A program made the translations under genes and the position numbers. A DNA stretch of 64,000 nucleotides from Sabellastarte sp. h YS-2021 (lineage: Eukaryota > Annelida > Polychaeta > Sabellida > Sabellidae): contig OZ024930.1 of assembly GCA_964017235.1 (NCBI GenBank), forward strand, positions 152,458,221-152,522,220, written 5' to 3'. Positions 6,817 to 62,705 of this stretch are shown in pieces. Below the pieces are notes generated by a model. It had not been told where the DNA came from. It searched no databases and saw only the letters and a list, made by a program, of their open reading frames with translations. Every line of letters begins with the position of its first letter. Within the stretch, counting starts at the first letter, position 1.

Positions 6817-7455
6817 AAATTGGGTATCCGCAATACTTTTACAGATAATTAGCATTTACTCATTTTGAGTAGGTAAATAATTAGCTATGGGTCTGAAACT
6901 TCACCATGTGAAAGCTCTCCCAAAAGTAGGTGAATGAGTTATTTGAGAAAAATTGGCTATCTGCAATACTTTTAGAGATAATTCGCATTTACTCATTTTG
7001 AGTAGGTGAGTAATTAGCTATGGGTCTGAAACTTCACCATGTGAAAGCTCTTCCAAAAGTAGGTGAATGAGTTATTTGAGAAAAATTGGCTATCTGCAAT
7101 ACTTTTAAGAGATAATTCGCATTTACTCATTTTGAGTAGGTGAGTAATCATCTACGGGTCTGAAACTTCACCATGTGAAAGCTCTCCCAAAAGTACATGA
7201 ATGAGTTATTTGATAAAAATTGGGTATCCGCAATAGTTTTTGAGATAATTAGCATTTACTCATTTTGATTAGGGGAGTAATTAGCTACGGGTCTGAAACT
7301 TCACCAAGTGAAAGCTCTTCCAAAAGTAGGTGAATGAGTTATTTGAGAAAAATTGGCCATCTGCAATACTTTTAGAGGTAATTCGCATTTACTCTTTTTG
7401 AGTAGGTGAGCAATTAGCTATGGGTCTGAAACTTCACCAAGTGAAAGCTCTTTGG
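6817..7455. repeat. 133-bp satellite, right part, about 5 copies
   Basis: Resumes the unit broken at about 2798. GTGAAAGCTC recurs at about 6907, 7040, 7174, 7307 and 7440. Variants such as AAATTGGGTATCCGCAATA are more common here than in the left part. The array ends inside a unit at about 7452, where it joins 169-bp units. Non-coding. Confidence 0.9.
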
Positions 7456-12980: not shown

Positions 12981-13380
12981 TTGTTGTGGAACCTGTTGGA
13001 ATTCTGCTGTTTCAGTAGTGTCTTCCAATGAGGGAGCTGTAGGGGTACCCTGGTCGAGAGATCCACCAGATCCCAAAACCATGGCATCCCTGGCCACCCT
13101 GGGGCCAGTACTATCATCCTGCATGGGTATGTTATTATTTTTGAATTACTTGTGGCAGGATGGCTACTGGACGGAAGACATAGCCGTCTAGGCCTTCCCA
13201 ACAGATATTCAATGCATCTAATTTCCAAGCCTTTCTGTCTGGGACAGGAAATACATAAATTGGAAGTTTGTAATTTAGATGAGTTGAAAACAGGTCTACC
13301 ATTGGTGTGTGCCAAAGTCTGCAAATTTGGTTGAATATCTGTTGGTGAAGGGACCACTCTGTTTGTAGGACCTTGTCCCT
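12981..13380 (-). pseudogene. Linker between DIRS RNase H and recombinase
   Basis: Continues on the minus strand after the RNase H frame. It contains VLAPGWPGMPWFWDLV near 13080, a segment characteristic of the post-RNase H part of DIRS pol proteins. The reading frame changes between it and RNase H, so the polyprotein is broken. No methyltransferase motif was recognised. Confidence 0.6.
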
Positions 13381-14100
13381 TCATGATAGGGAGTCTGCTA
13401 TCACATTTAGGGATCCAGGTACATGTCTTGCTCTTGTCTGGATCCTTCTGGAATTTGTGAATGCCAGAATTCTCCAGATAAGAGCACACATTTCTATGGA
13501 ATGTGTGCCTCCTTCTTTGTTCAGATAAGATACTACTGTACTGTTGTCTGAACAGATGAGCACTCTTTGACCTTGCAAGTGCTCCTGAAACCCCTTTAGG
13601 GCTAGTAAAACAGCTTTTAGCTCCAAAACATTGATGTGAAGCTGAGCTTCCTTGTTTGACCAGAGGCCACTGAGAACTATTTCGTTCAAGTGAGCTGCCC
13701 AGCCTTTTTGGGAGGCATCTGTGAATACCATTGTGTTGTGAATATGAGGATGTATAGGAGCACCTGCCATAAGATTCTGAAGATTCTCCCACATTTTGAG
13801 ATGATTCAGAAAATTCCCTGTTACTGGGATCCTTTTGTCCAGTGACTGGGGAAATTTCCAGTGTGACCTTAGGTACCACTGAAAAGGCCTCATGTGTAAC
13901 CTTCCCAGAGGTACTGTTTTTTCTAAGGAAGCTAATGTCCCTATGAGTGACATGAGCTTTCTTGGAGTCAAGACTAATGACCTTCTGATGGAAACAGTCT
14001 GAATTTTTAACCGATCGAGTTTCTTTTGGGTTGGAAATACCAGAACCCTCGGAAGATCGAAGTGATAGCCCAGAAAATCTAGTTTTTGTGTGGGAACCAA
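13381..14100 (-). pseudogene. DIRS RNase H domain with RT tail
   Basis: A 239-residue open frame. It begins in the thumb or connection of reverse transcriptase (TQKLDFLGYHFDL) and continues into an RNase H domain. The expected acidic positions are visible: Asp in VFTDASQKGWAAH, Glu in NVLELKAVLLAL, Asp in LICSDNSTVVSYLNKEGG, and the ending HVPGSLNVIADSLS. It would degrade RNA in the RNA-DNA hybrid. It runs into a stop at 13381 and is out of frame with the RT upstream and the recombinase downstream. The start given is just the first Met; a pol polyprotein would not start here. Confidence 0.85.
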
Positions 14101-14530
14101 TTCCGACGTTTGAAAATTGATGAGCCAGCCTAGTTCTTGGGACCAATTTCACTAAATTTTCCGAATCTTTGAGACATTGTTCCTCTGTTGGTGACCGAAG
14201 AAGCCAGTCGTCCAGATATTGATGTATTCTGAGGTTCCTGGCTTGAGCTATGAGTTTTACCTCTTTTACAATGCGAGTAAACTCTAGGGGAGCTGTTGCG
14301 ACACCAAAAAGGAGTGCCCGAAATTGGAAAACCCCTTTTTCTGTTTGAAATCTCAGATATTTTTGAGATTGTGGATGAATAGGAACATGAAAATAAGCTC
14401 TGTATGTCTATTGAGGTGAACCACTCCCCCATGTCGAATCGACTTCCTGATAGATTCGGCTGTTTCCATTTTGAAAGTTGTACATGCAAATGACTGTTTA
14501 AAAAACTCATATACCAGGAATAGTTTGGTA
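14101..14530 (-). pseudogene. DIRS reverse transcriptase core, several frameshifts
   Basis: Reading down the minus strand, RT motifs appear in successive frames: FKMETAESIRKSI (about 14480), GEWFTSIDIQ (about 14420), AYFHVPIHPQSQKYLRFQ (about 14390), PLEFTRIVKEV, and the active-site YLDDWLLRS near 14210. At least three frame changes are needed to follow it, including one near 14395 and one near 14147 inside GGTCCCAAG. The YLDD box and DIRS-type order confirm the family. No functional enzyme can be made from this copy. Confidence 0.85.
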
Positions 14531-15121
14531 TAATATGCTCGAGTTGTGAATTTTGTGACATAACTATCGCCTTGATAGCATGACCTGAACTACTTCGTGG
14601 AGGGCGCCATGTTTGTTTTTGTTGTGAAATTCGCTCGAATTGAGCGGAATTTTCGACAATTTTTGAAGAATATTGAACTCTAGGCGATAGCCATGTTTTA
14701 GTAAACCAACTAATCTGGGCTGAGGTTGGTATTTTGACTATACCTGGTAGAAATCCTGCAATGCTGGCCATTCATTTCAACTTTCTTCACTGCCACTTCG
14801 CGATGCGCACGCAGAAGGTATTTGGCTGTGTTCGTTTGTAACGAAAAGACTTGATACCTTCGTGAGCAGTTTTTGAGTGAGATGACCTCCCGGAATCATA
14901 ATTCCTGGCATTATCTCTATATAAGTTGGTGTAAGATCTGATTATGGATAGTCTTTTAACATTTTGTCCTCAACTTGAGACAAAATGTGTAAATGAAAAC
15001 TTGCTAATCAACGTGGCATATGTGCAGATAGGCAGATCCTTAGGTCTCAGGTTCGAACTATAAACTTTCAACAAGCTGTACCTGGCTAGGAACATGTTGC
15101 CAGCAAGGGCCATGTTTTACT

Positions 15122-34482: not shown

Positions 34483-34834
34483 TAATGCCCAGGTCACATT
34501 GTGGCGAGGCCACTACGAATTAACTGGCGAATAGGAAGATTTCCTGCGAATTAGAAATCATGGTAGTTGGCCACAGAAAGGGCGGGAAAGTGTGGTCACG
34601 TGGTTAAAATTGGAAAAATCCACAAATTACTTCAATCCGGCTACCATAGGCTACCATCATCTTCATGTTGTGGAAGATCTTGGTACAATGTTCTCATCAC
34701 CCAGTCAAGAACATCTTGTTTCTGTGAAGAACGTCGACGAACATCAAACGAACTTCGTAGAAGTATGTATGAATTAATGTGAAGTGTTGCGATTTCCGTG
34801 AGATGTTCTTGCACCGAGCCACGACTCATCTCCT

Positions 34835-35223
34835 GATGAGGAGAGGATCTATAACTACAGACTGTCTCGTGCCAGAAGGGTGGTGGAAAATGCGTTTGGC
34901 ATCATGGCCAACAGATTTGGTTGTCTCCTCACCACCATGAGTCAGAATCCAGAGACTTTTACCTCTATTGTATTGGCCTGTTGCACGTTGCACAACATCA
35001 TGAGACTGAGGTATCCAGGTATCCACCAGGGACTGGGTGATGAGGAGGATGACAACCACAGAGTTATCCCAGGACAGTGGAGGCAAGGTGCTTGTTTGCA
35101 GGACATTGAGGATGTGGCTGGTGGCAACAGGGATACACAGTTTGCCAAGAGACAGAGACTGTATTTGAAGCATTATTATAATGCTCCAGTAGGGGCCATG
35201 GCGTGGCAAAGAGACATGATTTG
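34835..35223 (+). pseudogene. Harbinger 1 transposase, C-terminal fragment
   Basis: An open frame of about 130 residues, PDEERIYNYRLSRARRVV followed by ENAFGIMANRFG and VLACCTLHNIMR, ending in a stop after MAWQRDMI. RVVENAFGI carries the third acidic residue (Glu) of the DDE catalytic triad of PIF/Harbinger (DDE_4) transposases, and LHNI is typical of the end of the catalytic fold. The two catalytic Asp motifs are absent; sequence between the left terminus and 34835 is short and frame-broken. Two AATAAA signals follow within 160 bp. Confidence 0.85.
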
Positions 35224-44267: not shown

Positions 44268-44608
44268 AGAATCCGCCGCAAGCTTCCCCTACCAGTGAAG
44301 GAGGGATGGAAAATCGGAACTTTGACGGTTTCTCTGATACTATGACAACAGCCTTACCTCCATGTAAGGCCGCATTAAACACACAAATTCCAGGGGGTTT
44401 GAACCCAAGTCAGAAACCTAACTGTCAAGTTCAGCCACCACTCAACATCCCAACCTTTCGACGTCCTTTGGTTGACAACTTTCACCGCACCATAAGGAGA
44501 CACGGTACCAAGATGAGAAGCAAAGTCAAGAAGGCGGCCAAGTGTGTTGTCTGCGGTGAAAGGGCTAGCGGCATGTACTTTGGTGCCTTGGTGTGCCTTC
44601 CATGTAAG
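44268..44608 (+). CDS. Two-DBD nuclear receptor: exon with N-terminal region and DBD1 first zinc finger
   Basis: Starts after acceptor TCTTTAG and ends CLPCK before donor GTGAGC. It encodes an unstructured N-terminal (A/B) region rich in Pro, Ser and Asn, a basic stretch near FHRTIRRHGTKMRSKVKK, and a complete first zinc finger CVVCGERASGMYFGALVCLPC (C-x2-C-x13-C-x2-C). The P-box, which reads the DNA half-site, is CLPCK+S, unlike the usual CEGCKG or CEACKG. The exon begins in mid-codon (two bases of it), so at least one upstream coding exon exists unless Met at 44307 is the start. The protein would be a ligand-regulated or orphan nuclear transcription factor. Confidence 0.88.
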
Positions 44609-45658
44609 GTGAGCATGAAATTCTGAATTTCATTCAAAGTCACAGATATACTGTTCACTTGCAGAAAATCCTCTTTGTGCTCATGAACATTTTTGCTGAT
44701 TTAATTCAATCCAACAAATGGATTGAACATTTGAATCATTTGAACAAATGATAGGAACAAATAAAAAGCCATTTTTTATTTTGAAAAAATTTCCAACTTT
44801 TCTGTGATAGGAAGGTTTGTCTGGTGACCTTGACCGCTTTACTCTGCAATAAAGATATCACCTCGCAATAATAAAGGAAAAATTAAATATAAAGTATTCC
44901 TAGTTGACTTATTTGGTGCACGCTTTAACATTATATCACCCCTTTGCTATATAATGATATTGCATAACAATTTAATAACAATGTGTTAAATAAAAATGTG
45001 CATCAGTTTAAGTGGTGTATATCTCTTATTATCACTCAAAAATACGTATTTGCTTTTATAGATTATTGTCACCACAAATTATTTTTATGTTTAATTAGCA
45101 ATGTTTGATATTATAAGTCCCAGGATATATGGTAAAAATATTTTAATAGAATGAAATAGACAGAATAAATAGTTAAAATCACAATCAAGGTCGTTTGACC
45201 TGTTTCTACGCTATCCTGCATGCGCAGAAATGGTTGTATTATCAGCGGAAATATCTTATATTTTTCACAATATTCAACATATTGTTGTAACTAATTCATA
45301 TAATTCTTAAAACAGTTATTTAAAACCATAGAATTTAAGAATAATTTGTATCCGTTGTTTAGTTTTAATTTTGAAAAACCTTTTTCACTGGGAACACATT
45401 TCCAATTTTTTTTCATTTCATTTTCACATTTCACATGGAAAATGCATTGATTCGTCCGTTCAAGACTGGTACATACTAGTAAACATCCTGTAAAAATTGT
45501 GGTTTAAAATGCAAAGAAATGCTCCAATTTATGACGAGCAAAAGAATGCAGCATTAATAGATGACTGTCATCATAGGCGATACCAGTCCCTATAGTCGAC
45601 TGGTGTCCCGTCAAAAGGAAGGTATTATGTATGTAGGCCACACCAGATAAAACGACCA
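44609..45658. other. Receptor intron, no features
   Basis: AT-rich intronic sequence following the donor GTGAGC at 44609. Confidence 0.5.
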
Positions 45659-46244
45659 GGGCCCGCATTCACGAAAGGTCTTAGACTAAGCCAGGTCTTA
45701 GGCTTAAATCCAGTCTTAAAGTTTAGACTTTTGTCTCAGCTGAGTTTTGTCTTAAAACCGTATTCACAAAGGGTGACTTAGCTAAGTCCAAGATTATCAA
45801 ATAACCACAGTGGTTCTCTGTGTCATGTGACCTTTCTTTTATATTCAAACTATGCTATTGGTGACATATATCCTTCATTTAATGCATTTTATCTAAGGCA
45901 AAGTGCTGTTTTGAAATGGAAAGCCTTGTTACCACATATAAACTTTCAAAGACTGCTTCAGTGAGATGTTCTGTATAATAATACTTTATTTACAGCCATT
46001 TCAAATCTTGAAGTGGAGGAAAGTTTATGGTGGCCATATTTAAGTCCTCTTTACAAAATTTAAGCCCGCTACTAACCAGTCTTAAAGTTGAGCTCTTGGC
46101 TAAGCCTAAGACCAGTCTTAAATTCTTTGTGAATACCACTAAGCCGAAGACAAAAGTCTTAGCAGGTTTTGGACAGAAACTTGAGACAAAAGTCTCAACT
46201 TTAAGCCTAAGCCCTGGCTCAGACCTTTTGTGAATATGAGCCCC
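45659..46244. mobile_element. MITE with long imperfect inverted ends
   Basis: The left end GGGCCCGCATTCACGAAAGG and the right end read inward GGGGCTCATATTCACAAAAGG, each followed by a GTCTTAGACTAAGCC-like run of TTAAG/CTTAG motifs. A second TATTCACAAAGGG motif lies about 105 bp inside each arm (about 45762 and 46126), so each arm holds the terminal motif twice. No coding content except chance frames. No clear target duplication. Confidence 0.7.
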
Positions 46245-49200
46245 GAACAGCAGTTTGTTGCTAAATTAGAATTGAAACACATTAATTTTACAAAGACCTA
46301 GTGTAATTTTAACTAGAATTTTGCTAGCGAGTTTTTGTAATATTATACAGCAATCTGGTGAAGTATAATGATTAAATTCTTTGAAATTGGCATAACCTGT
46401 TATTTACTGTTTTGTGTGGACAAAAATCTTGTGTTTTGTTGTAATGTATTGTGCATTTTAATGTGTTTAGAAATAAATAATAAAAAATGTCCCGAACTTC
46501 CTTATTTTGACAGTTTTTTTAATTTAATGTTTAGTTCAATGTGTTCAGGTTTATAATGAAGGCTTGCATCAGAGTGCGTGATATTGTACTTGTTCATTTT
46601 TACAGACCTATAGACAGACTTCTACTTTCTTGTCACTTGTGTGTCACTTGTGTGTCACGTAAGGACACGTACAGTGTGATGTAAGAGAGACTTTATTTGA
46701 ATAGCTATGCACTGATGCTTTGATTCCTCAAACTTATCTGCCATATAAGGTGATATTTGGGACCTTATCTAGTGTCAACTATTTATAGCAGCAAACATTC
46801 ATTTTGTGATCTACATGTAGTGTGATAAAATTATTTTTACACTACTTGGCAAGAAAAAAAGTCTAAACAAGTATGATAAAATGAGCCCTGAAATATCTCT
46901 ACTTACGTCTGTGTGCGGCTTGCTATATTTGTCAAGAAAAGTGCCCCTGTTGAAGACAGTTCAATATTAATTCATTCATATAGTTTTGTCATTAATTTGA
47001 CTATTATACTAAAAGAGACGACATCATTTGTTTTGATTGTATTTGCCACAACCATGGCTGGTTTCTATGATACATTTGAAGGGTACTTCAGACTTCGTTA
47101 AAACGTGATTACAAGTGTGCCTGCCTAAGTGTGTGGACACCCACTTCTAGTCTATTGCTGATTGTGGTGACTTCAGTCATCGTTGTGAAATAACAAAGGT
47201 CATTGACTTTGTGGTAACAGATAAAGCCCAGCATTTTAGTTTGACAGAAAATACATTATCCAAAACGAAAATTTGGTAATAAACATAATCGAAAGTTATA
47301 TTGTTAATGAGTCGACCAAGAATATGGCTTGAGTTTTATGTACACAGCAATGATTAAGACTGATATTATATTGACATATTATAGAGACTGACATTTTGTC
47401 GGGGTACAATATCGTAGACCATAATTTTTCTTACATTCAACCATCTTAAGCAGACTAAATTGGAAAAAGATTTCTTTATCAGATAATATATAAAATTTTG
47501 ATATTACATTTATGCTGACTGATAAAGATGTTGTCTTCATATAATTTTCATTTTTAAATTAGTGCGTTTGTGTATATTCTTATTTAATTTTCCTTATTTT
47601 GAATTTCTGCTCAAGCTAATTCAGTATAATTTAACAAAGATTTTTGAGTTTGACTTATATTAAAGCAGCAAAAAGCTAACACCCGTTTATTCAGATTTAC
47701 TCCCAAGTTAATGCAGCCAGATGGAGCCAATGGGATATTCGTTTTGTTTTCATACAACAATACCTGTTTTGTTATTCTTTTGTTATTCAAATTTACAATA
47801 TGATTCTAAAGTCTATATGAATTTGAGTATGTACGGTATTTGCAGAGGATCCAGCCAAATTCTACAGTTGTCACATGAATTGGGGCTTTCTTGTGTAAAC
47901 CAGAAAATATTGAAGTACCCGTTTTATAATGCACTTCCATGTTTATATGTATACTTAAACTCTAGAAAACACAGAACATCATAAATATCATCTTAACATA
48001 AAAGTGTTTCAAAATTGATATTCAAATTGATAAACTTCACAAGTTAACTTGTAAAAAATACAGAAATACAAAGCTTATATAGACCACAAAGATACATTAA
48101 ATGTGACCCTTTGAATATCTCTGAAACCTATCCGCAAACAAAAATACCCAAGCAGACATTTTCTTTTTACAACTCTTTGAAAGAAAGTAAAGATAGAGCT
48201 TTTTATTGTGACAAAAATCTCTGAGTGGAAAAAGACTTTATTCTTATCTGTTGACAAAGTATAGAAGTTTTAGGGGGAGCCCCTAGGAATATTTTGTTGA
48301 AGAAAACTCTGACTAGTTTACAAACAGTTGCTCTGGCTGGGTCAGCAAGAACATACTGCCTCTTAATCACCCGACATTGTAGATTGAAACCAAGCACCTT
48401 GCATTGATAAGATTGTGAGTGGAGCTTTATGAGTGTGTCCATAGATTTTTCTAGCTTTCTCCTCCTCAACCACCACCACAAACATTTCTCAGTAACCAGG
48501 AACCATGCACTTTGCAAACAATCTTTTATCAAAGATTAATAAAACATTTGTTGCAATGTTCCAGTTGTTTGGTTTCCACATTGGAAAGTTGATTATTTTC
48601 CTTGTGATGTGTATTATGATTGCATTAATTCTGAAAAAAAAACAGTATACAGAGCAAAGAAAAAACTGAACAAGAATAGGCAAAAGCTACACTTCTTTGC
48701 TAGGAGCAAAGTTGTGTCTGGATGATTATCACAATGTCTGTACAGTAAATTATCTAATATCTGCCCATCGTCTGAATTGTTTTTTTCTTCACTTAAAATA
48801 CCCATCTAATGACTAGACAAGAAGTACAGCACACGTTTGTAAGATAAACTACAAAGTCTTATATTCCTGGATTCAATTAAATACACATTAGACTTAGAAG
48901 AGCTTGGGGTAATAAACCCCTTTGTGTAGAAAATTTTAATTGATGCCCGAGTGTCACATTACTGAGCAGGCACTTGGCCCCAGGGTAGAAAGTGGCTATA
49001 GTATGTGGAATTCATCACTTGAGCGAGGTGGGATGCATCCTTCAAAAGTTAGACCAAATAATCTAAATTTGTGCCAATTTTTGCAACGGGGGTGATAAAA
49101 GGTATAGTGTATTGTCACACAATTATCAGACATGTGTTAAAATTTGCAAAAGGTCAAGAAAATTTAAACTTCTTACCCCAGTACTGTATTGTATCATTAT

Positions 49201-49288
49201 ACTCAACTTTCTATATGTGTATATCTCAATGTACTATGGGACTCCATGTGCTATTTGAACCATCCAGACTACACAAGTACAGCCCAAG
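46245..49288. other. Receptor intron, no features
   Basis: AT-rich sequence. Frames of up to about 109 codons on either strand show no domain. Confidence 0.45.
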
Positions 49289-49618
49289 CAGAGGTAGATA
49301 CAGGATTTTCTGAAAGGGGGGGAGGCGTGGGTTGTCGCAGGTGCAGATATTTCATACTTGGACATTTCATAGCAGGGTATATCATGCGGTCGCAGACAAA
49401 ATCCCAGAGGACAAAATGCCAGTCAAAATTGTAATGGAGAACAAAATGCTAGCCATTTTATGGGACAGGGAGGATAAAATGCTGATCTTATCACTTTATA
49501 TATCATCCTGGTCAAGCAAACCAAAAAAGCCTCTGTAAAAACCAGCAGTAGAAAATACCTTGGTATAAAGGCCCTCTTACTAAATGGTTCATAATACATT
49601 CCTAGATCTGCCTCTGCC
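49289..49618. mobile_element. Possible small MITE
   Basis: The left CAGAGGTAGATACAGG and the right end read inward GCAGAGGCAGATCTAGG are similar. The centre repeats GACAAAATGCCAG-like phrases three to four times. Weak terminal match; low-confidence call. Confidence 0.35.
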
Positions 49619-49879
49619 AAGCTCTTCAGTGACTGATTCTCCTGACTGAAAGAAAGATGCTCCATCGAGTTTCAGTATTATGAATATCCTGGTCAAATTT
49701 TATAAATTATAACATAGTTGGTCATTACACATCTTCAGTATTAAAGTACAAGTTACAGTAATGATTGGCCGATGGTTGGACCATCTCCTTTCTCATAGCT
49801 AAAATACACAAATCTAATCAGTTCTTACATAGCTGGTTTTGCTTTAAGGTATTGATTTTAACGGGGGTGTTCCACTGGG

Positions 49880-50445
49880 GCCAGCCTGTCGGTAACTATG
49901 CATTTTTGGAGAGTCAGGACCAATGTTTACAAGTTCGGTTAGGGTCGGTTGGTGGTGATATTTCTACCACTGTTGCCGACCCTTGTATCTGACCCTAATT
50001 TCATCCACCTAGCAACAGGCCTGTCGGTTAACTTAACGGCCTGTCAATTACACTTCCCTGGCTTGTCGGTTAATCAAACAGGCCTATCTGTGACAAGTAT
50101 CCGGCTTGTCCCAAATATGTACTTCCCAACTGTACTTGAAGACAAACAGACTGTGCAGGAAGGGTTACAGTACAGTCGGTAACTTTAGCCGGCCTGTCTG
50201 TAACTGTTCCCAACAGGCCTGTAAAGTTTCAAGGCCAGTCGGTAACTTTAACCGACTGGGTCCTAATGTCCGGAAAATTTGTAACTGACAGGCCTTAAAC
50301 TAAAACAGACAAGACGTAAACAACAAACGACAGGCCTGTAACACTAACAGACAAGCTGGGAACTGTAACCGACAGGCCGTCAATATTATTGCCTCTTACG
50401 GCATGTCAGTTTCCAAATCTGTGGGTTTAAAAAGGCGAGTCGGTA
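49880..50445. promoter_or_regulatory. Subterminal motif array of Harbinger 2, left
   Basis: More than ten variants of GGCCTGTCGGTAAC or its reverse complement GTAACCGACAGGCC occur in both orientations, for example at about 49884, 50026, 50168, 50190, 50237 and 50365. Clusters like this are likely binding sites for the element's Myb-like protein or transposase (inference). Confidence 0.6.
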
Positions 50446-50647
50446 GACAATCTGCATATATTTGGGCTTTGACTTGTCGAGAGACAACTGGTGTGCAGCT
50501 TTTATTTTAAGTTTTTCATTTTTTGCAAATTAGCTTAAGCCTGAGTTAGGCTGGACTGGCTGGGAGTGAAATCTGTTTTATGAGGTTTCACTTTTATTTT
50601 TAAGTTTTGTGTTTTAAACAAGCTGTACAATTGATTGATTGATCAGC

Positions 50648-52101
50648 ATGCCAATGGGCAGAAGGAGAAAGATTGAAGTACCAACTGACACTCAACCACA
50701 GTTTGAGTTAGGAGATACAGCTGAGGATATAGAGAGAAGAAGGAGGGAGAGAGAGGAGAGGGATGAGAGATAAGAGGATAGAATAAGAGGAGAGGGACAG
50801 AGAGAGGGTGGAGAGAGAGAGGAGGGAAGAGAGCCAGAAAAGGGGAGAGAACTGAACGCGAACAGACACGGACACTGATGTAGAATCAACTCAATCCAGA
50901 CAGAAGAAGGGACAGATGAAGTCCATTTTCCTGAGTGATTCAGATGGAGAAGCCACCGTGGAGTTCGTTAAACAGCATGAGGAACTTTATGACAAGACCA
51001 ACAACAGTTTCAAAGACAAACAGAAGAAAGAAAGACTTTGGGAGCAGCTAGCAGCTATCAAGACTGTGAAGAAGTGGTTTCGAGACTCAATGTACCAGAT
51101 ATGGCAAGCTCACTCAGATGAAGTCAGGATAAGCAGCCGAGAAGAGCACAGAACGACAGACCTGGCTGAAGGACAGTTTCAGTTTTCTATGAGGTCACAT
51201 CAGAAGGAAGGGAGTTTCCAAGTCTTCTGCATTCAAGTCAGCCCAGAGACTTTCTGCAGCCGCAGCCTCAGCTTCAGTTTCAGATACATCTAGAGACACA
51301 GAATCTGAGATGGAAATCAGCATTGCATCAGATGTTACTTATCAGCCTTCGAGCACCAGTCCTAAGTGATGACAGCCTACAGTCGCGACTACCACCACTG
51401 CTGCAGATCAGTCTTAGATCAGTTGCAGCAGATGAGGTCGATGATTTCCACATTTCTGGGTGCATGTCAGGACCCCACTCCAAGTCCAAGACAGTCGTTC
51501 TGCAACTATCTCCACTCTGACATTGAACGCCTGGAGGAGAGAGACTTTTTGACCTTCAGGAATGAGACAGTGAAGCTTTTCAGTGAAATACAGTACAAGG
51601 CCAAAGAATCACAAGTCAACAGGTCACCACATTTCAACTTCCAGAAGCAACACAGGCCACAACAGGACGTGAATACACACTCACCATACCAGAAACTCAA
51701 GCAGTCTTCATTCCTAGCCTACACAGATAGCCACATCACAGCCTGCTACAATGATTGCCAAAGTACAGCAACCATCAAGGCCTTTATCAGTGTCAGCACA
51801 GCCAACTTCTTATGTAGTTGTGGATGACCAACAGCCTGGGACTTCCAGACAGATGATTTTCAACCCACCTTCAGTTGCAGCTTCACAACAGGAGGAAAGT
51901 CAACACAACACTTCTGGATTATCCAGACTCTTTGGAGCTATTCCAAGTGTACTACAGTACCAGCAGATAGACACACTACAGCCATTTTCACCCTCTCAAC
52001 TTCAACCAGCACCATTACCAGTGCCATCTTCCACTCATCAAAAACAGTCAAGACCTTCCAGCCAGTCTAGCCAGCACAGTCAGCCCAAATCAGCGGATTA
52101 G
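50648..52101 (+). pseudogene. Harbinger 2 Myb/MADF-like gene, frameshifted
   Basis: The first ATG is at 50648 (MPMGRRRKIEVPTD) and runs into a stop after a basic Arg/Glu-rich stretch near 50770. The DNA-binding domain is recognisable from 50950: VEFVKQHEELYDKTNN, LWEQLAAI and VKKWF. Past 51090 the expected RYGKLTQMKSG continues in a different frame, and ERQTWLKDSFSFL follows with stops on either side. A C-terminal domain-like block FCNYLHSDIERLEERDF and NETVKLFSEIQYKAKE lies in the frame at 51366-51827, and a Ser/Gln/Pro-rich tail ends at 52101. At least two frame changes and several stops. In intact elements this protein partners the transposase on DNA. AATAAA follows at 52254. Confidence 0.75.
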
Positions 52102-52253
52102 TCTCAACAAAACCGGCCCTTCTAAGGGCCAACCGAATCTTCCAAAATCAATTATTCAGCTGTTGTTGCCCAAAAACAAAAAGAGCACACCGTCCAACAC
52201 TTAGTACATGAAAAAAGTTGTGTGAATGAATGAGTGAATGTTGAACAAATATT

Positions 52254-52259
52254 AATAAA
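52254..52259 (+). terminator. Poly(A) signal after the Harbinger 2 Myb-like gene
   Basis: AATAAA, about 150 bp after the last stop; an A-rich low-complexity stretch (52275-52500) follows between the two convergent genes. Confidence 0.45.
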
Positions 52260-52265
52260 GTTCCA

Positions 52266-52560
52266 CCACAAAACAGAGAAAAAAAATTAAAAAGAAGTAA
52301 AAAATTCTAAAAAAAAAATTTTTTTAAATTGTAAAAAAGTTTTAAAAAATTTAAAAAGAAAGTAGAAAAAAAACTTAAATAAAATTTGTCCCCTAAGAAT
52401 TCCAAAGAAAACCACCTCCACCCCTCAACCAAACAAAAACAAAAATTATAAAACAAAAGTCCACCCCCGCCCCTCCCCCCCAATAAAAAATAACAAAGAT
52501 CCAGACACCAATCCACGTCCCTCCCAGCCCAAACCAAAATTGCAGTAAAATATTTTTGGT
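52266..52560. repeat. A-rich low-complexity stretch between Harbinger 2 genes
   Basis: Long runs of A interspersed with TT/C, then C-rich runs (CCACCCCCGCCCCTCCCCCC near 52460). Frames across it are compositional artefacts. Confidence 0.8.
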
Positions 52561-52711
52561 GAAATTGAATTTGCATTAAATTGTTGGAAAATTGGGGTTA
52601 TTTTTTGGTCAACACTTTGCTAAATAAAAGTTCTTGGATTATTTGGGTAGTCCTGAAAAGACTGAGAGATGACAGCATGTTCTCCCCCTCAGTCTTCTCC
52701 CCTCAGTCTTC

Positions 52712-53960
52712 TTAAACTCTCTCCTCCTGCCCAGCCAGCGTTCCCACCTGATTGAAGTAGTCTTTCAGTAAGTCTCGTTGATGTTTGGCCTCCCTCGATG
52801 GGTTTCTGAAGTTAGGAGTGGGTGGTCTGTCAGCTCCCCCTTGATGGCTTCTCAGCATGTTATGCAATACCACATATGTTAACACAATGTCTCTCACTAC
52901 TTCTGGCCTCTGCTCCATGGTGGTCAACAGCACCCTGAATCTATTGACAAGTATACCAAATGAGTTCTCAAAAACCCTCCTGAACCTGGATATCCTGTAG
53001 TAGGCTATTGTCTCTTCCCTGGTCAGTTGTCATCTACTGTAAGGCTTGACCAGCCAAGGCATCAGGGCAAAGGCATCATCCCCAGCAGGAAGTACTGTAG
53101 ATTCATGTGGTGGTAGTCCCAAGGTTCTGTTCTCAATTCTTCTTTTCAGTTTGCTGCGGTTGAATATCTGAGCATTAGGTGATGCCCACTGGCCCCCATG
53201 TTGACCCACAGGAATTTGTAATCTGCATCGACTAAAGCCAAAAGTACCATGGAGAAGCAGCCCTTGTAGTTGAAATATTCACTGCCTGACTTCTTGGGCT
53301 TCTTTACAGCAATGTGTTTTCCATCTAGTGCACCAACTGCATGGGGGACATTCCATCTGTTTCTAAATCTTTCTTCAATTTTCTTCCAGTCTCCAGGACC
53401 AGTGGCACACATCAATTCTTGTTGAAATTCTTTCAAAATGGCTTTGCAGACCTGGGGGACAAATTTGCAGATGGTTGTTCTTCCAACCCTCCAGTGATAT
53501 TGCAGTGAAGTGTAGCTTTCCCCTGTGGATAAGTGTCTCAAAGTAACTGCCAGTTTCAATCCGACTACCAGTGGCTTCCTGAAGTTTGTGATTGACTTCC
53601 TGAGATGCGGGGTGATTCTTTCTTCAATCAAATAACAAAATGCTGTTTCCATCCTGGTAAAGTTTCTGTAGCCTGGTATATCAGTAGTGATTAGTTCCTC
53701 CAACAGTGTTCTGTAGCAACCTCTGTCCTCTGCAGTATCCAGGGCATGACCCATGGATTCCTTGGCTTCCTTCTCCTTCTGGGTGGTGGGGGTAGTGGTA
53801 ATGCTGGCTGGACAGGTGCTGGGTTCTGCTGTCTTCTGTGTCTTAAAATTATCATGTACAGTAAAATATTTAACTCAATAAAATCAAAAGGACCCTCAAG
53901 TGATCTATCAATTGCTCTTGATGTGTTCCAGTCATCTTTGAAGTGTGAAATGAATGGCAC
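52712..53960 (-). pseudogene. Harbinger 2 transposase, full length but disabled
   Basis: From ATG at 53960 (MPFISHFKDDW), with basic Pro/Arg stretch PPPPRRRRKPRNPWV, then the helix-turn-helix-like part (YRNFTRMETAFCYL, LKLAVTLRHLSTGESY, ICKFVPQVCKAIL), GALDGKHIAVKKPKKSG with the first catalytic Asp, SPNAQIFNRSKL where the second catalytic Asp is normally SDAQ, FRRVFENSFGILVNRFR with the catalytic Glu, and VVLHNMLR before the stop at 52712. The total matches a complete PIF/Harbinger transposase (about 400 residues). Defects: frameshifts near 53725 and 53183, an in-frame TGA at 53032-53030, and Asp to Asn (AAT at 53176-53174) in the triad. Confidence 0.88.
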
Positions 53961-54019
53961 ATCACAAGGGAGGGGGGTTTATATAGTGTGATATGGATCC
54001 CAATTCTGGATCCCGACTA

Positions 54020-54320
54020 TAGATACCGACCCACAAAAACAATCAGTCCTGTCGGGAAGGGTCGGGAACATGGTCCCGGCTTGTCTGTTTGTCTTTACGG
54101 CTTGTCTGTTTGTGATCCAGCTTGTCGTGTTAGGGTTTAGGGCTTGTCGTAGTAGTTCTACGACTGGCCGTGCAAAAAATGTCCCCGACCCTACGTCTTG
54201 TCAGGATGCTCATCACGTCCTGTAACTATACTGACCTGTCGGGGATTTGATAACTGACTCAGCATTTTTGTGCGCTTTTTCCCATGACCTTACGACTGAC
54301 CCTAGAGTCGTAGGGTTGGT
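54020..54320. promoter_or_regulatory. Subterminal motif array of Harbinger 2, right
   Basis: Variants GGCTTGTCTGTTTG (twice near 54075-54115), GGCTTGTCGTAG, CGTCTTGTCAGG and GACCTGTCGGGG, matching the motif of the left array more loosely. Confidence 0.5.
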
Positions 54321-54353
54321 TAAAGGGTCGGCTCCAATGGAACATCCCCATAA

Positions 54354-57300
54354 GTCTTACGCAAAATCAAAGTGAATGAAAAGTGGATGTAGAATAGAAT
54401 ATTAAAATATTGACAATTGTAAAAATATATATTACATGTGTATTTATATGTCAGTTAAATTTGATTAACCTGAGTCTAATTACTAGTTAAACCCGCATCT
54501 CGATCTGTTTGGGGTGCAGTATGTAAGTTTAGTTACGTACCACAAATTACAAACTTTACCAAAACATTTTCTGCCTTTAGTTAGTATATTATTTGTTTGC
54601 CATGTTATATTGAAACCTTCAACCCCAAGAAAACCACTCTGATTTTTTACTCTCTTAAACTTAGAATGTGCTTTTGTAAAAATAAAGAAAGTAGTTCTAT
54701 TATATTACTCATTTTAACTATACATGTATATGAATAAGTTACCATCATAATGTACGGATATTTTGACAATCTAATTGTGAGTTGGCACCTATACTACCCC
54801 TTCTTCTATGTACATTTGTGCATGTTGATCCAAGCCTGTCTTTGTAATGTGAAAAAGGTTCACTTGGAAGTCCTCAAACAACACGCCTGGCTATGCAATC
54901 AGTCAATAGATTAATCAGTTTAAGAGACATACTAAAGCAATGAAAAACCTGTGTGGATTTTCTTTTCACATTTTGAATAGCAGTAGATCCTTATACAATA
55001 AAAGCTTTCCAAATTGAAGGGCATGCTTTTTTGAAGAATTGATTTAATGACACTCACTGTATGTTTAACATCTCATAAATAAATCCCTGGAATGTTCCTA
55101 TTCTTCACTACCTTTTTGAGAAGAGGAAAAGCTGATCTCATTTTTATAGGTAATCGTTCAGGTCTTAAAAACCTTTTTCACTGTAAGGAAATTGAGGTGT
55201 TGTTTTAAGTATAGGTTGATGGCGTATATGAAAATAATAAATTGTTTATGAGATCCTGAAGAGACTGATTCAACAGTCCATTATTTTCAGATATTGGACA
55301 CTTGGAAGACTATCAACCTATTTCAATTACATCCCTTCCTTAATTAGTAACTTAATATGTTCTTTAAAGTCATTTCTTTCAATTCCATATTTCTGGTAAT
55401 TATTTGGGATGTATTAGGGCTTCCATATTTGATCATAGCCACTGAGTAAAACAACTGTCGATTAATGAAGATAATGAAATTTCTCAAGTATAATTTTTAA
55501 AAAAACTAAGAAACTCAGAAGAATATATTTTTGGAGATTTTGTAAAAGTCAAAGCAATTTGAAAAGTTGTCTGTAGTTGCCCTTTAAATTGATCTTTTCA
55601 TTAATGAGAGTAAAATATAGTTGCTTATGTTAGTAGAATACCTAGAAATCAATAATATGCTTCCACTTTATCATATATTCTAGAAAGTAGAAAGTGGGTA
55701 AGCTTCAATGGGAAACACCGTCTGAAGACTTGGTATTCTCTATGTACAGTAAATTTCGCTAAACAGAGTTTTGTATCAAATACCCACATAATATATAGTA
55801 AAATATGCATATTCTTTAATTTTACATTTGTCTGTTTCATTTAATTGCTGACCACCAATATCATAACCAAATTTTCACTTTCTTGATGGAAAAATGAAGT
55901 AACTTTTGCAAACAGACTATCTGCATCAGTCATGGTTAGGTTTGTGTAGAAGTATTGAAGTAAAACAAATGAACTTGAAATGTAAAGGGGTCATATTGAT
56001 GTCAACCCTTTGCGATCTTCAGGTTATTCTGTGGAAACAATGATTTCGTATTAAACCGATAAAACAGTTAACAGCACCAGAAACTAAGCCAGAGTTTGTA
56101 AGGTATGTGTGTCCTTTTGAATAACCATTTCCAGTGACACATTCTAATTGGGTAAACAATTTCTGGATATTTCTCCTAACATAGAGTAGATCGGTGTAAT
56201 TCAGTGGAAACACTTCAATAGCTTGCCAGCAATATGTACACCACCAGTACATGATCACCTGATAACATACTGGTGTCAGGAGATTGGTATAAGTGACAAC
56301 ATTCATTGACAGAGTGTATTCAGAATATCCCTGTACAAAAACCAAACATTAGCCTGACTAAACGAGGCGGAAGAAGCTTTAAAGGCAGATTTGTAAACAT
56401 CCGGTCCAGTACGCTAGGGTTTTAAGAATATATTCGTTTAGACGACTTCCATAATGTATAGTTTTTAACATTACCTTGACCAGTGTGGTGTAGAATTTTC
56501 TGCTTTCTACAGGGGTGGACAGTCTTATCCCCAAGACAGTATAAAGGACAACCAGTTTCACTGTCTGTCTCTTGTTGAGTCTTGTCCGTAAGACTGTCCA
56601 TCCATGAAAAATTTATGAATAAGTGTACTTATTCTCTGTAGAAGGTTTTTCTATTTACATTAGAACTGTCCTTGCTTGTGTTTTATTCTAATTACTACAT
56701 CCTTGAGTGTGTAAATTGGTGAATAGATTTAAAATTAACAACTGAGTGTTTTAAATATTCTTGCAAAATTTAACATGGGAACTGTATCAAACGTTTGTTT
56801 AAACAAAAGTAAGAGTATAAATTTCTGATAAAGTAAGTTTACTCCTATGTAATTTAATACTCGCCCCAGCCTTGATTGAAACTAGAACTGCTTGCTCCCT
56901 GGAGAAAACTTCATTTGATTATAATCAGTGGGTACCAACAGCCAGATTTCCAGATTTCTGACTGTGTTGATTCACGACTCTGGATGAAGTACATGTGTTA
57001 TTCAGTGTATGGTATGATATTGTCACATAAAACTTCTCAACTCCGGGAATATATTGAACAAACCTACTGCAGTGGGCCAAACTCTCACAGAGGTGACAGC
57101 CTGTGTTTAGATGCAACGCTTGCTAACCATTAGGTCATAAGGACCCTGTGTACTGCAGTAAGGCAAGACAATCGTGTTCTACTCATGTCTTGGTGCCATA
57201 TTCACTTAAGGTCTTGGCTAAATCATCGACTATTAAGTTGATTATATATTATATAAAAGTTAAGCTTATAAGACTTGGCTATGACCTTACATGATCAAGG

Positions 57301-58917
57301 TCCCTGGTTTTCTAAATATTTAGACCCAGATCATTGAGACTGGGGTTACAATCAAGCCCATATGTGTCCTTTTCTACTTTCACTTGTACTCTGAAGCTCA
57401 ACACACAAAGTCAGCTGACACAGAGCCCATTCACAAGCACTGATTGCTTGTCTAATGTGTGAGCACCCAAGAGATGATTAAACCTTATAACTATTTTATG
57501 CCAACATTTGTCAACAGGCATACTCAGGATTTCTTCATCTCATATGGGACTTATGGTGACTTGTTAATTGCAACATTTTTAAGTACCCTCATATGTAGAG
57601 ATTTCACACAAGTGTAAAACCTGGAGCATCTCTTCTACAGAAAAACTGGGCAGAAATATTGAGAGACTTTAACCATTTTCATTAGGCATTAGCACCAGAC
57701 CATTAAAATAACTTTATGGAACACATACACACGGAGAATAAAGCTTGGTGGAGGGCCTCCTAAATTACTGCAACAGTGGCAAAGTTGGGACTGAAAAAAA
57801 CAAGAATAAGTGATTGCAGTTTTTGACCTTTAAATTATAATCACTAATTTCTGATTGTTTCATGTTTAATCAGCTTGTTTATTCACCTGCGTCTGTTTGT
57901 TGAAAACAATTTATGGAGTTCCGGCTATTTGTCAAAATTAATGACCCTACATCTCCCCAGAAAACAAGGTATTGGCATTGCAGAATTTTGGGTTCTGACT
58001 AAGTTTGGCTCTTAGATTAGAAGACTTGGCCTACAATATTTTTCATGAGTTCTTAGTGCATAGAGTTGATTTTATGATGCATTTTATCAAACAATAAATG
58101 ACAACAGAATATTGTAAGAATGTAACCTTCAACAATGAGTGGTTCTGAAAAAAAATCCATATTTGAAAAACAAGTGAATGTGTTATCTTGATCAAAGTAT
58201 CTCCAACACAAAAGCGTACACAGGTTAAATTGCTTTATCTTGTAGTTACAAGATAGCAATAGATGCAGTTACAAGACAGGAAAAAATGTAAATTGATGTG
58301 TATATTCTTCAGTACTCTTCTGTCATTAAGTTAAAAGAATTGAAAGAATGGAATGAACTGACATTCAAGAAACATTCCAAGTATGAACTGTTTTTGACTC
58401 TCTCTCATCCTGATTGTTAGATCTATCCTCATGTATGTAGGTCAGTTGTCATGCAGTGAATGTTTCAGACTTAGTTTTGCCTTAAGTGTTGGCTTATAAA
58501 ACCTCCAAGTGGATGACATGAATTTATTTTTCTCTTTTTGCCATAATGGTCATGTATGAAAATCACATAACATTTAATCAACAGGAAAGTATAAGCTGAG
58601 CTTTGGAGTTTTGCCTGTATATTATTGTGAGTCTCAGACTTTAAATGAGTGTATCCTGACAAGTTAAATTTTTACTGAACAGAAACCTGAAATACCAGTT
58701 AACAGGATAAAGGCCCTCTGAAAAACTGATATATGTCCACTTAAAAGCTAAATTACACTAAGCAGGGTTTGGCTGTAATCACTGTTCATTATTATACATG
58801 ATTTGCATTTGATATACATGTGTCTCGGAAACTCAACTGACAAAAAATGTTAGATGTGAGACAAAACTCAACCGAATTTTAGCTAAGGTTTGGAGATATT
58901 TCATGAGTCTGGCCCCA
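54354..58917. other. Receptor intron, mostly featureless
   Basis: AT-rich. Around 57191-57315 a decayed foldback resembles the MITE ends (CATATTCACTTAAGGTCTTGG, and GGCTATGACCTTA in reverse). No host exon recognised. Confidence 0.45.
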
Positions 58918-59207
58918 GGGCCTGTATTCACAAAGAGAAAAAATAGCTTAACTGTCACAGAAAAATGGCTTCGCTAATCTTTGAATTAAATCGGTACCCA
59001 CAAAGTTAAGTTAATTTTCGGATAAAATGCAGCAGAATCAACTATATTTAAGTTAATCCTTCTGTTAGGTGGATTAAACTTAATCCAAAAACTCAGCTTA
59101 GCTTCTCTGTAAATACGAATCTAAATCCTGATCCAATTTTGGATTCACTTAAACAATTATTTTGCTGATCCCCTTTGTGAATGGTATTCGTTTGTGAATA
59201 GAGCCCC
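58918..59207. mobile_element. MITE, related to the 45659 element
   Basis: The left end GGGCCTGTATTCACAAAG and the right end read inward GGGGCTCTATTCACAAACG, each followed in the arms by AGCTTAAC or AAGTTAA/TTAACTT motifs. A second TTCACAAAGGGG lies inside the right arm at about 59170. Same terminal motif as the MITE at 45659, different interior. Confidence 0.65.
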
Positions 59208-61054
59208 TGATGTTATACCTAAGTCACATCTTTGTGTGTCGGGCACACAAGCCACAACTGAATGGCCGCATCTACCTTTGGTTGCGGTTGGTCCATTACA
59301 TATTTGGGGTGTGATGCATTCAGTGCAATTCGTATTTGGGTAAGGCACACTCGGGGCGATTTGACACAACTCTGAAATTGCTTTGCATTCAGAACCACTT
59401 TTTAAAAATGTTAGAAATAGCCGTTATTAATCCTCTCACAAACTGTATTCAAATACACACACACTGAAGGGGTAAAGTTGGGGATGGATAGTCTACAAGG
59501 TGGTATGTACTTCCACATGCATTAACCAGATCTGACGTCTTTTTTCACAGCCATAAAGACAAGATCGTCAAGCAGGAATCCAATACATATAGATAAGTTC
59601 AACAGGAAAAGTGTGACCTAGGCATTAATCAAACTAATTACCTTGTCTGCAGGAATCCAGCCAGAAGTTATTCACACCAAGACTCTGTCATAAAGGTTAA
59701 ACCATCAACAAATGGGGAAAATACTACAAAACTTCTGTTGTATAATTTTGTACAAGACAAAAATAACAGTGGGCACAAAAATAGCTGTGTCAAGTCAATA
59801 GTCTGTGAACTGTTTTATTGCTGTGATTGATTAGTACCGAGTAACATGTTCCAGTCATCAATAAGTAATAGATTTCTCCAAGCAAATGATCCCTCTCTAC
59901 ATTTTTAGGTTGAATTGAATCTTGCTTTATATGCTGTGTAGAAAATGTAACTTTAAACATGTAATTATAATAATTGATTGGAGTTCTCCTGTATTTGCTG
60001 CAACTTAGATAAATATAAAGATGACCTGTTTACCACGGAGTCCCAATGTAGACCTTAATATATTTACCTCCTCCAAGGTTGTATTATTTTTATTTCCATT
60101 TGTCTGTTCTTTTGTTTGTAAGCAGGATTACACAAACACTTCTGGTTGGATCTTCCTAAAAAAATAGAAGATGGGTCTTGGTCAAAATCAGATCCCATTG
60201 AGTTTTGAGAATGATCTGGATCACCATCTGGATACAAAACATAATCTGGATTTTCCCATTTTCTTACTATTACATGATTTTTGGAGGTATACACACTCCA
60301 TGTACTCTTGTTTGTCATTTTATGGGTTGTGCTCACACTAATGTCTCGTGATTCAGAGAAAGTCAGTCGTGAGCACCAGATCATTTTGTAATAATGAGAT
60401 GATCCAGTGAGCATGATGTGATCAGGTGCTTGCAACTTATTTTCAGCATATTGTCATCACAATTACTTTAAACACCAAAGGTTTTGTGAGACAGCATTTT
60501 CCCCTTTGAATTTTGTTTCATTTTAAAGACATTTAACAATCCCCAAAACATTGTAAGAGTGACATTTGTTGTTGTTACATTTTGTCAAAACAGAGGTAAA
60601 ATAGTTTTATTACTACCGAAATAATTGATCATATGAACTTGTTTCATAGAAACTTTTTACAAGGAATTTCAGATAACACATTGTAAACTTCTACATAAAA
60701 TAACATTCAACTGAACAAAGTTTGACTTAAACATGTTATGTAACCGTGGCAGCTGTTAAAGATTATCTCTTCTCATTCAACACTGTTTGTTGCCGGGATA
60801 TAGTATCCAATCTCCTGTGTTCTTGACTATCGTTGCTTGGATGTGGGTACTGTTCACTGGGCATTAATTTTTGTAAAAGTAATCCCACATAAATAGTTTG
60901 GTCCTGTTTCAGAGGGGTGCCAGGCACTCTACAAATCATGACTTACCGCAGTTTCATCTGTTCCACAATAAACGATACGGTACTATTGAATAGGATAGTG
61001 CAGCTCTGGTAAAATCAAAAGTCTAACTGCATTGCATGAATTCATGTGTTTCAG
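59208..61054. other. Receptor intron, no features
   Basis: A minus-strand frame at 59157-59369 is Cys-rich (CQIAPSVPYPNTNCTECITP) but overlaps the MITE end and has no domain I know. The rest is unremarkable up to the splice acceptor at 61054. Confidence 0.4.
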
Positions 61055-61199
61055 AGTTTTTTCATCCGCTGCACCAAGGATGGTAAGCCACAGCTGACTT
61101 GCTTGGGTGACAAAAACTGCAGCATAGACAGATCAAACAGGATGCGTTGTCAGTACTGTCGCTACAAGAAGTGTCTGAGCGCTGGCATGATGAGAAGAG
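61055..61199 (+). CDS. Two-DBD nuclear receptor: DBD1 second zinc finger exon
   Basis: Acceptor TGTTTCAG precedes and donor GTAGGA follows. Joined to the previous exon at AAG|AGT, it reads [16 protein letters not shown], then [16 protein letters not shown] and [13 protein letters not shown]. The second finger has canonical C-x5-C-x9-C-x2-C spacing, with D-box LGDKN. The usual FFRR after the P-box is FFIR. The exon ends in phase 1 and joins G|AG to the next exon to give MMRREKPETV, so only about a dozen residues separate DBD1 from DBD2. Intron before it: 16.4 kb. Confidence 0.92.
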
Positions 61200-61250
61200 G
61201 TAGGAATTCTCTTTGTCCTATACTTACATTAACTTGTTCATGCCCACAGT

Positions 61251-61480
61251 TCTAATGCCTGCATCACATGTGGCATTTGCTAATGCCTGGATGCTATATG
61301 GTTTTTTCTAATGCCTGCATCACATATGTGTTTTTTTTTCTAATGCCTGCATCATATGTATTTTTTCTAATGTCTGCATCACATATGGGTTTTGTCTAAT
61401 GCCAGCATCATATGGGCTTTTTTAATGCCTGCTTTGCATGTGGGTTTTTCTAATGCCTGCATCACATGCAGTGCTGGGGA
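61251..61480. repeat. Minisatellite in receptor intron 2, about 7 units
   Basis: TTCTAATGCCTGCATCACAT with a variable T-rich tail repeats about every 34-38 bp, lying 50 bp after the donor of the DBD1 exon. Confidence 0.85.
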
Positions 61481-61565
61481 AAGGATCACATGCAACTGGT
61501 ATTTAAAAGACTACAAAGTATGGAAAATGGACAATTTTTTTTAATATTCTGGGATTATTACATCT

Positions 61566-61588
61566 CAATAATAATAATAATAATAATA
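61566..61588. repeat. (AAT)n microsatellite
   Basis: About seven AAT units in the same short intron. Confidence 0.9.
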
Positions 61589-61771
61589 TCCTGTCTCAGA
61601 TTTGCAATCTGATGTGCACATACTTTCGAACAATTTCTAATATTTATGGTGACTTTTGCTTGCTGACTTCATATTTACATTTTGTGCAAAATATCAGGAA
61701 ATTATAATCATACATGGGGAAATTTAGTGGGTACAGCATTCAGATTTCACATGATATGGTGTACTTTGCAG

Positions 61772-61878
61772 AGAAGCCAGAGACGGTGGAACCAGGAGAG
61801 GGGCAGGAGCTGTGTAAAGTCTGTGCAGATATAGCCAATGGTATTCATTTTGGAGTCATGACATGTGAGGGCTGTAAG
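61772..61878 (+). CDS. Two-DBD nuclear receptor: DBD2 first zinc finger exon
   Basis: Acceptor TACTTTGCAG, donor GTGAGG. It encodes a short acidic linker EKPETVEPGEGQEL and CKVCADIANGIHFGVMTCEG followed by CK. The P-box is CEGCK+K. Finger spacing C-x2-C-x13-C-x2-C is intact. The exon break immediately after CEGCK is at the same place as in DBD1, as expected if one DBD arose by internal duplication of exon pairs. Confidence 0.95.
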
Positions 61879-62563
61879 GTGAGGAGTGTTTACACATATT
61901 ATTAGTGATCTGGTGGTAACTGCATGAACTGTTAATTTATTGATGTTTTAAAAGGTTAAAAGCAGTATTCAAAAATACCTTATGACAGCACACTTTGAGA
62001 TTAATCACCTTAATACAAACTTTAAAAAGTTAACATATGAGACAATATACAAAAATGTAAGCTACAATATCTCTAAACCCACATCTAAAGCTAATGAATA
62101 AAACACTGTCTATCCTTAGTAAACTTGACTTTGTTGGTGTCATCAACAACTGTTTGAGAATAATTATGATGATGTTGAAAAGAGACATTGATATATATAC
62201 TGATTGTGAATTATAGCTAGTGCTATTACACCTCTGTCTCTACCTGTTCAAGAGACATAAATTTTTAAAGTTATTTATATGCATCCCCTTTTATGCAACA
62301 TAAAATAGCCATGAGAACAAGCATCTTTCGAAGTAAAAATATATTTGTTGGAGATAATTATATCACTGTATAAATTATAATGTAGCTTCTTGTGAAACTA
62401 CAATGTAATATTTGGACAACTGAACTATTTGCAAATCATTTAAACGGCAGATTTTCAAACTTTCTAGAACTATAAATTGAAAATAAATCAATTTACGGTC
62501 CGATGATTGTTTATAAAAATCAAAACATATTTTTATTTACATATGTTTTATCTTTTTTTTCAG
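61879..62563. other. Receptor intron between DBD2 exons
   Basis: 685-bp GT-AG intron (GTGAGG to TTTCAG), no internal features. Confidence 0.8.
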
Positions 62564-62705
62564 AAATTTTTTCGACGGGCCTTGAAAGAGGCTGACACAT
62601 ACGACTGTAAACATCAGAAAATCTGCACACTGAACCCAAGAAACAGGAACGCCTGCCGCTACTGCAGATATCGCAAGTGCATCAATGTTGGGATGTCCAG
62701 ACAAG
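62564..62705 (+). CDS. Two-DBD nuclear receptor: DBD2 second zinc finger exon
   Basis: Acceptor CTTTTTTTTCAG, donor GTAGAG. Joined in frame it gives KFFRRALKEADTYDCKHQKI, then CTLNPRNRNACRYC and RYRKCINVGMSRQG, the C-terminal extension start. Spacing C-x5-C-x9-C-x2-C is intact and the D-box is KHQKI. It ends in phase 1. Hinge and ligand-binding domain must be encoded beyond 64000. Two-DBD receptors known from Schistosoma, Daphnia and molluscs have this DBD-DBD-LBD order. Confidence 0.95.

Follow-up and report, generated by a model that had tools for sequence, protein, structure and literature searches.

The stretch of annelid DNA analysed here (the window, 64,000 nucleotides; C4:152458221-152522220 of a 1.786-Gb assembly in 647 contigs) raises the question of whether four exons, each coding for half of a nuclear-receptor DNA-binding domain (DBD), belong to one gene with two consecutive DBDs, and to which kind of receptor such a gene would belong. 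By its sequence, the locus almost certainly holds the 5' and central portions of a single nuclear-receptor gene in the group 2DBD-NRB. It looks like a working gene and a further member of an already known kind; what is new is the presence of at least seven two-DBD loci with one exon plan in one genome. The exon plan of the window gene is as follows.

44268-44608, + strand: exon e1, 341 bases; closing part of the A/B domain, with the basic stretch RRHGTKMRSKVKKAAK, then DBD1, first half (CVVCGERASGMYFGALVCLPCK); predicted entry in phase 1 and exit in phase 0
44609-61054, + strand: intron 1, 16.4 kb; AG/GT borders
61055-61199, + strand: exon e2, 145 bases; second half of DBD1 (48 residues); phase 0 to 1
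61200-61771, + strand: intron 2, 572 bases; 28-base tandem repeat at 61250-61468
61772-61878, + strand: exon e3, 107 bases; linker EKPETVEPGEGQEL and first half of DBD2 (CKVCADIANGIHFGVMTCEGCK); phase 1 to 0
61879-62563, + strand: intron 3, 685 bases
62564-62705, + strand: exon e4, 142 bases; second half of DBD2 (KFFRRALKEADTYDCKHQKICTLNPRNRNACRYCRYRKCINVGMSRQ); phase 0 to 1

These borders are predicted from the sequence, with AG before and GT after every exon, and e1 contains a possible start Met (GGG ATG GAA). Spliced in silico, e1-e4 yield 244 residues with zero stops, phases 1-0-1-0-1 and three junctions in frame, and the joined peptide contains two stretches that Pfam recognises as zf-C4 (E 1.7e-49). 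The four exons with matching phases and two complete C4 DBDs that the first-pass annotation had placed at these positions are thus borne out by the AG/GT borders, the in-frame join and the Pfam matches. A six-frame scan of the 64 kb for C-x2-C-x13-C-x2-C and C-x5-C-x9-C-x2-C returned the strict C4 spacings at these four + strand half-domains only, in the right order, and all 16 zinc-binding Cys are intact. The half-domains of e2, e3 and e4 were also found in a genome-wide zf-C4 search (C4:152519272, 152520030 and 152520784); that of e1 (CLPCK) lies outside the 83 matches of this search and was recovered with its own peptide as query. The best matches among solved nuclear-receptor DBDs are COUP-TF1 for DBD1 (E 2.3e-19) and ultraspiracle for DBD2 (E 7.5e-22). 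The P-boxes read CLPCKS in DBD1 and CEGCKK in DBD2, and the two domains have 28 identical positions in a 67-column alignment, so that neither is a recent copy of the other.

The P-box pair and the linker match the published definition of NRB, and hence the kind is already known and the window gene belongs to it. According to the survey that describes the group, molluscs, annelids, brachiopods and phoronids have 2DBD-NRB receptors marked by the P-box pair LPCKS-EGCKK, the DBDs of most 2DBD members lie 17-22 residues apart, and DBD2 of NRB is followed by five residues and then by the G-box KXGR(P/H) (Wu and LoVerde, 2023; PMC10497141). The window gene has two complete C4 DBDs in one frame when spliced in silico, the pair LPCKS-EGCKK, and a pre-grip of five residues, SRQAI, between the closing GM of DBD2 and RMGRP. 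From the closing GM of DBD1 to the first Cys of DBD2 we count 17 residues, within the published spacing and a little above the dozen or so residues first given. Membership of 2DBD-NRA was considered and rejected, as the P-P module of that group is EACKK-EGCKG and that of the window is LPCKS-EGCKK. A full-text literature search for CLPCKS led to PMC4070562 and PMC10497141, and the motif is reported, in the accessible text, for Cg2DBD-delta of the oyster Crassostrea gigas (PMC4070562).

This oyster receptor, 2DBD-NRB1/Cg2DBD-delta, therefore has the same first P-box as the window gene (PMC4070562, PMC10497141), and the further likeness in the P-box pair and the 17-22 residue spacing is taken from the available group description, not from an alignment. 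The two differ in that the G-box of the window gene, RMGRP, has R for K in the first place of the stated KXGR(P/H), and in that no ligand-binding domain (LBD) was found for the window gene. The first G-box residue varies among the other NRB-type copies of this genome: it is K at C2:87.8M, Q at C6:108.5M and C2:63.4M, and R at C14:73.3M. Tandem DBDs are common to the window gene and to 2DBD-NRA (schistosome 2DBD alpha, beta and gamma), and the NRA-type loci of this genome share its exon borders, but the NRA P-boxes CEACKK-CEGCKG differ from the window pair, and the window gene is identical to the NRA-type copy at C4:105.05M at 34 of 70 positions of DBD1 and 34 of 69 of DBD2. Receptors of this genome with one DBD only (NR1-like P-box) share with the window DBD2 its CEGCK-type P-box. 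The first-pass annotation had already recognised a two-DBD receptor and assigned it to a group described in schistosomes and later in molluscs and Daphnia. The identity stands, and the range was too narrow: the survey lists rotifers, brachiopods, phoronids, nemerteans, annelids, molluscs, flatworms, nematodes, echinoderms and amphioxus in its available text, from which the word Daphnia is absent (PMC10497141). The accessible part of a 2007 paper already gave schistosome, Lottia and Daphnia two-DBD sequences.

At least seven two-DBD loci are present in this genome, the window included, five of NRB type and two of NRA type. Seven is a lower bound because only part of the 83 zf-C4 matches were read, and the count is drawn from a search that scored only its best candidates. 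The six loci outside the window are the following.

C2:63.38M: NRB-type copy; first P-box LPCKS, second EGCKK
C2:87.79M: NRB-type copy; first P-box LPCKS, second EGCKK
C14:73.3M: NRB-type copy; first P-box IPCKA, second EGCKK
C6:108.5M: NRB-type copy; first P-box VPCKT, second EGCKK
C4:105.05M: NRA-type copy; DBD1 EACKK, DBD2 EGCKG
C2:188.53M: NRA-type copy; DBD2 EGCKG; no DBD1 first-half exon found in the 3 kb upstream

Against these five NRB-type loci, Table 1 of the survey gives a single NRB gene for each bivalve species and no more than two for any gastropod species, and the highest number in its available tables is three, in Lamellibrachia (PMC10497141). The present genome would thus hold more NRB genes than this part of the survey gives for any species. 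The most two-DBD genes listed there are seven, in the nematode Aphelenchus avenae (group NRC), followed by six in two bdelloid rotifers (PMC10497141). A literature search found no prior report of a comparable set of five NRB and two NRA loci in one genome. By eye, a lone second-half exon at C18:29511247-29511501 (L057), reading K/LFYTRCLKLGLKYECHDAGHC, also resembles the first DBDs of two-DBD receptors; in the tree of second halves it is placed elsewhere, on a long branch.

That tree comprises 37 second halves, all from this genome and including 21 of 28 other receptor exons, over the small number of 47 columns. The seven DBD1 second halves fall on one side of a branch (96/98), with the window DBD1 beside that of C2:63.38M (98/93). 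The five NRB-type DBD2 group together (94/81, not starred) and the two NRA-type DBD2 lie elsewhere; the tree does not show DBD2 as monophyletic (3 changes), and a topology with all DBD2 in one clade is not rejected (p-AU 0.489). When both DBDs are joined, NRA-type and NRB-type are split at 100/100, the mutual order of the five NRB-type copies is not separated, and the window gene has the shortest end branch of these five (0.24). Comparison of the window gene with the other four NRB-type copies yields pS of 0.76-0.92 and pN of 0.21-0.31. The low pN relative to pS indicates that the domains are under purifying selection, and pS near saturation that the NRB-type copies are old.

The gene runs on past the window. 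Exon 5 begins at extended coordinate 67043 (C4:152525263), 4.3 kb beyond e4; the junction reads GMSRQ/AIRMGRPKKVKAEN, and exon 5 supplies the G-box AIRMGRPKK. Its frame, a hinge rich in Ser, Pro and acidic residues, runs on for about 285 codons before it meets a stop at 67897. A donor at 67068 would leave exon 5 just 26 bases, and past that position no GT donor scores as high as any donor of e1-e4 (matrix-based score), so that exon 5 could be a last exon. The first-pass annotation had proposed to look for an LBD beyond base 64000, and over 90 kb downstream none came to light. Pfam, applied frame by frame to nine 10-kb pieces of the + strand, recognised none (E<=0.1 for one piece and E<=1 for the others; exons cut by piece borders could escape such scans), nor did a profile built from five LBD pieces of the same genome or a mutual comparison of open frames between five other regions and the downstream 90 kb. 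A genome search with PF00104 placed none of its 19 matches near any of the seven two-DBD loci, and at E<=10 none of 52 matches lay near them (55 best candidates scored). By eye, the hinge exons of C14:73.3M, C2:87.8M and C6:108.5M end in stretches possibly resembling the start of an LBD, a weak likeness; a Pfam scan of the 10 kb downstream of the C6:108.5M copy named no LBD. Since all seven loci come out of the genome search without an LBD nearby, we favour an LBD of the window gene that is too diverged or too far 3' to be recognised, rather than absent.

Repeats and mobile elements surround the gene and occupy part of intron 1.

898-2795: satellite array, unit 133 bases
3896-6236: satellite array, unit 155 bases
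6817-7452: satellite array, unit 133 bases
7452-8393: satellite array, unit 169 bases
11881-14771, - strand: retroelement frames with reverse transcriptase PF00078 and RNase H PF17917 (Pfam)
34802-35221, + strand: piece of a DDE_Tnp_4 (PIF/Harbinger-type) transposase (Pfam)
50856-51290, + strand: MADF-domain fragment inside intron 1 (Pfam)
52712-53874, - strand: DDE_Tnp_4 (PIF/Harbinger-type) transposase inside intron 1, split over frames (Pfam)

The retroelement at 11881-14771 is presumably DIRS-like; Pfam matches nothing in its supposed recombinase frame at 11881-12483. Frames that by eye are related occur near the NRA-type copy at C2:188.53M (in L077), and frames like the array at 7452-8393 are found near the C14 and C2:188 copies. 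Downstream of the window, at C4:152602221-152612220 (L073), Pfam reports ATP-synt_C; since the same 23 profile positions match in all three frames, this suggests a repeat rather than a gene.

Several other readings of the locus have to be weighed against a single NRB gene. Two single-DBD genes lying side by side, or DBD exons that follow one another by chance, could have been misread as one; in favour are the 16.4 kb between e1 and e2 and the predicted nature of the exon joins. This is highly improbable: e2 runs into e3 in frame and stop-free, six more loci have the same order and phases and a short linker, and published NRB proteins, in the available descriptions, carry both P-boxes in one protein. 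A decaying copy of a two-DBD receptor, which the transposon fragments and satellites around the locus might bring to mind, is barely credible given that the zinc-binding Cys, the predicted splice borders and the frame are all intact, that pN is far below pS, and that the end branch of the window gene is the shortest among the NRB-type copies.

A two-DBD receptor that ends in its hinge exon, having lost the LBD, would be a variant of the single NRB gene and not exclusive of it. The long open frame of exon 5, without a strong donor after 67068, and the failure to recognise an LBD within 90 kb are in its favour. The same search, however, finds none near the six other two-DBD loci and therefore says little, three copies have hinge exons whose ends look like the start of an LBD (weakly, by eye, and with none named by Pfam at C6:108.5M), and the available text of the survey describes an LBD signature in 2DBD-NRs (PMC10497141). 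We consider such a loss unlikely, and retain a single NRB gene with a divergent or distant LBD.

One of the copies bears a further observation. At C2:63390234-63391770, about 3 kb downstream of the NRB-type DBD2 of C2:63.38M, lies a third, degenerate DBD exon pair (within L033, C2:63389900-63392300; halves at 63390234 and 63391637) with intact predicted borders and phase 1-0-1. Its P-box is CEDCKV, and by eye its second half lacks conserved Arg residues. Its pN against the NRB-type DBD2s (0.32-0.39) is higher than that of the neighbouring DBD2 (0.18-0.24), it falls on the DBD1 side of the second-half tree on a branch of 4.68, and the G-box exon of the C2:63.38M gene, at about 63389382, precedes it. 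A three-DBD protein is disfavoured by the preceding G-box exon, the lost Arg residues and the raised pN, and on the same grounds the pair looks more like a relic. It is doubtful, to the point of being improbable, that the NRB copies represent a radiation in which the first P-box diversified (LPCKS, VPCKT, IPCKA) under a constant second CEGCKK and in which this pair serves as an alternative or added cassette of a three-DBD receptor.

How the doubling arose may be read from the exon borders, which are identical in 27 half-domain exons of the seven loci (28 expected, the DBD1 first half of C2:188.53M being missing). All 13 first halves end after CK in phase 0, and the 14 second halves all start there and have a possible phase-1 donor exactly three residues past GM. 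DBD2 is entered in phase 1 at 7/7 loci, by hand count from the nearest AG upstream of the first Cys. A GC donor, AAG/GCAAGT, follows the DBD1 first half CQVCGDIAAGFHCGAYVCEACK of C4:105.05M (L034, C4:105054801-105058800, at about 1744, - strand). For comparison, 28 second-half exons of other receptors were hand-picked from the 83 zf-C4 matches, 2 of which were unreadable. Among the remaining 26, 11 start exactly after CK, two more (L039 and L052) start one base later, and 24 share the phase-1 exit; the split after CK is thus a general receptor feature. The observation that an intron splits both DBDs directly after the P-box CK was correct as to position but fails as a special mark, and it was rejected as evidence of internal duplication on these 11 of 26 and on the 28/67 agreement of DBD1 with DBD2.

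With a near-universal phase-1 exit, a DBD pair that is entered in phase 1, as e3-e4 is and as is likewise predicted for e1, can insert in frame. This suggests in-frame addition of a cassette via the phase-1 exit as the way in which the doubling arose: the two-exon DBD cassette of an ordinary receptor would have been added in tandem in an early bilaterian. This phase-based argument was not met in the available portions of the 2023 survey, the 2007 paper, a flatworm survey or an Echinococcus paper. In those portions, the words intron, exon and splice are absent from the 2023 survey (PMC10497141), the 2007 paper states that exon and intron were indistinguishable outside S. mansoni, the flatworm survey gives DBD intron positions for HR96, RXR and Coup-TF and only sequence length for 2DBD, and the Echinococcus paper counts ten exons and draws no such comparison of borders.

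The predicted product would comprise, in order, a variable A/B domain, DBD1 with its rare CLPCKS, the 17-residue linker, DBD2 with CEGCKK, RMGRP five residues on, a hinge rich in Ser, Pro and acidic residues and, further 3', probably a divergent LBD. In a CEGCK P-box, Glu and Lys recognise AGGTCA-like half-sites; further contacts, in the minor groove 5' of the half-site, come from the G-box. DBD2 has both features. By analogy with the receptor family, DBD2 and the G-box would bind an A/T-flanked AGGTCA-like half-site in the ordinary manner. DBD1, held next to DBD2 by the linker, would read a different or looser half-site adjoining that of DBD2, as may be expected because its P-box has Leu for Glu, followed by Pro. 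The protein would probably act as a homodimer through its C-terminal domain, in which case four DBDs would face the DNA. A schistosome NRA member is described as forming homodimers and not RXR heterodimers, and its band shifts with AGGTCA repeats showed no binding (PMC1810520); the 2023 survey also cites a homodimer case from Echinococcus (PMC10497141).

The present analysis adds chromosome-scale gene structure to a receptor group known largely from database-mined proteins. As the exon plan of seven loci follows the ordinary borders of receptor DBDs, it offers a concrete and testable route by which a receptor could gain a second DBD in frame. Finally, with five NRB-type copies that vary in the first P-box and keep the second constant, the role of the odd first DBD becomes open to comparison within a single genome.
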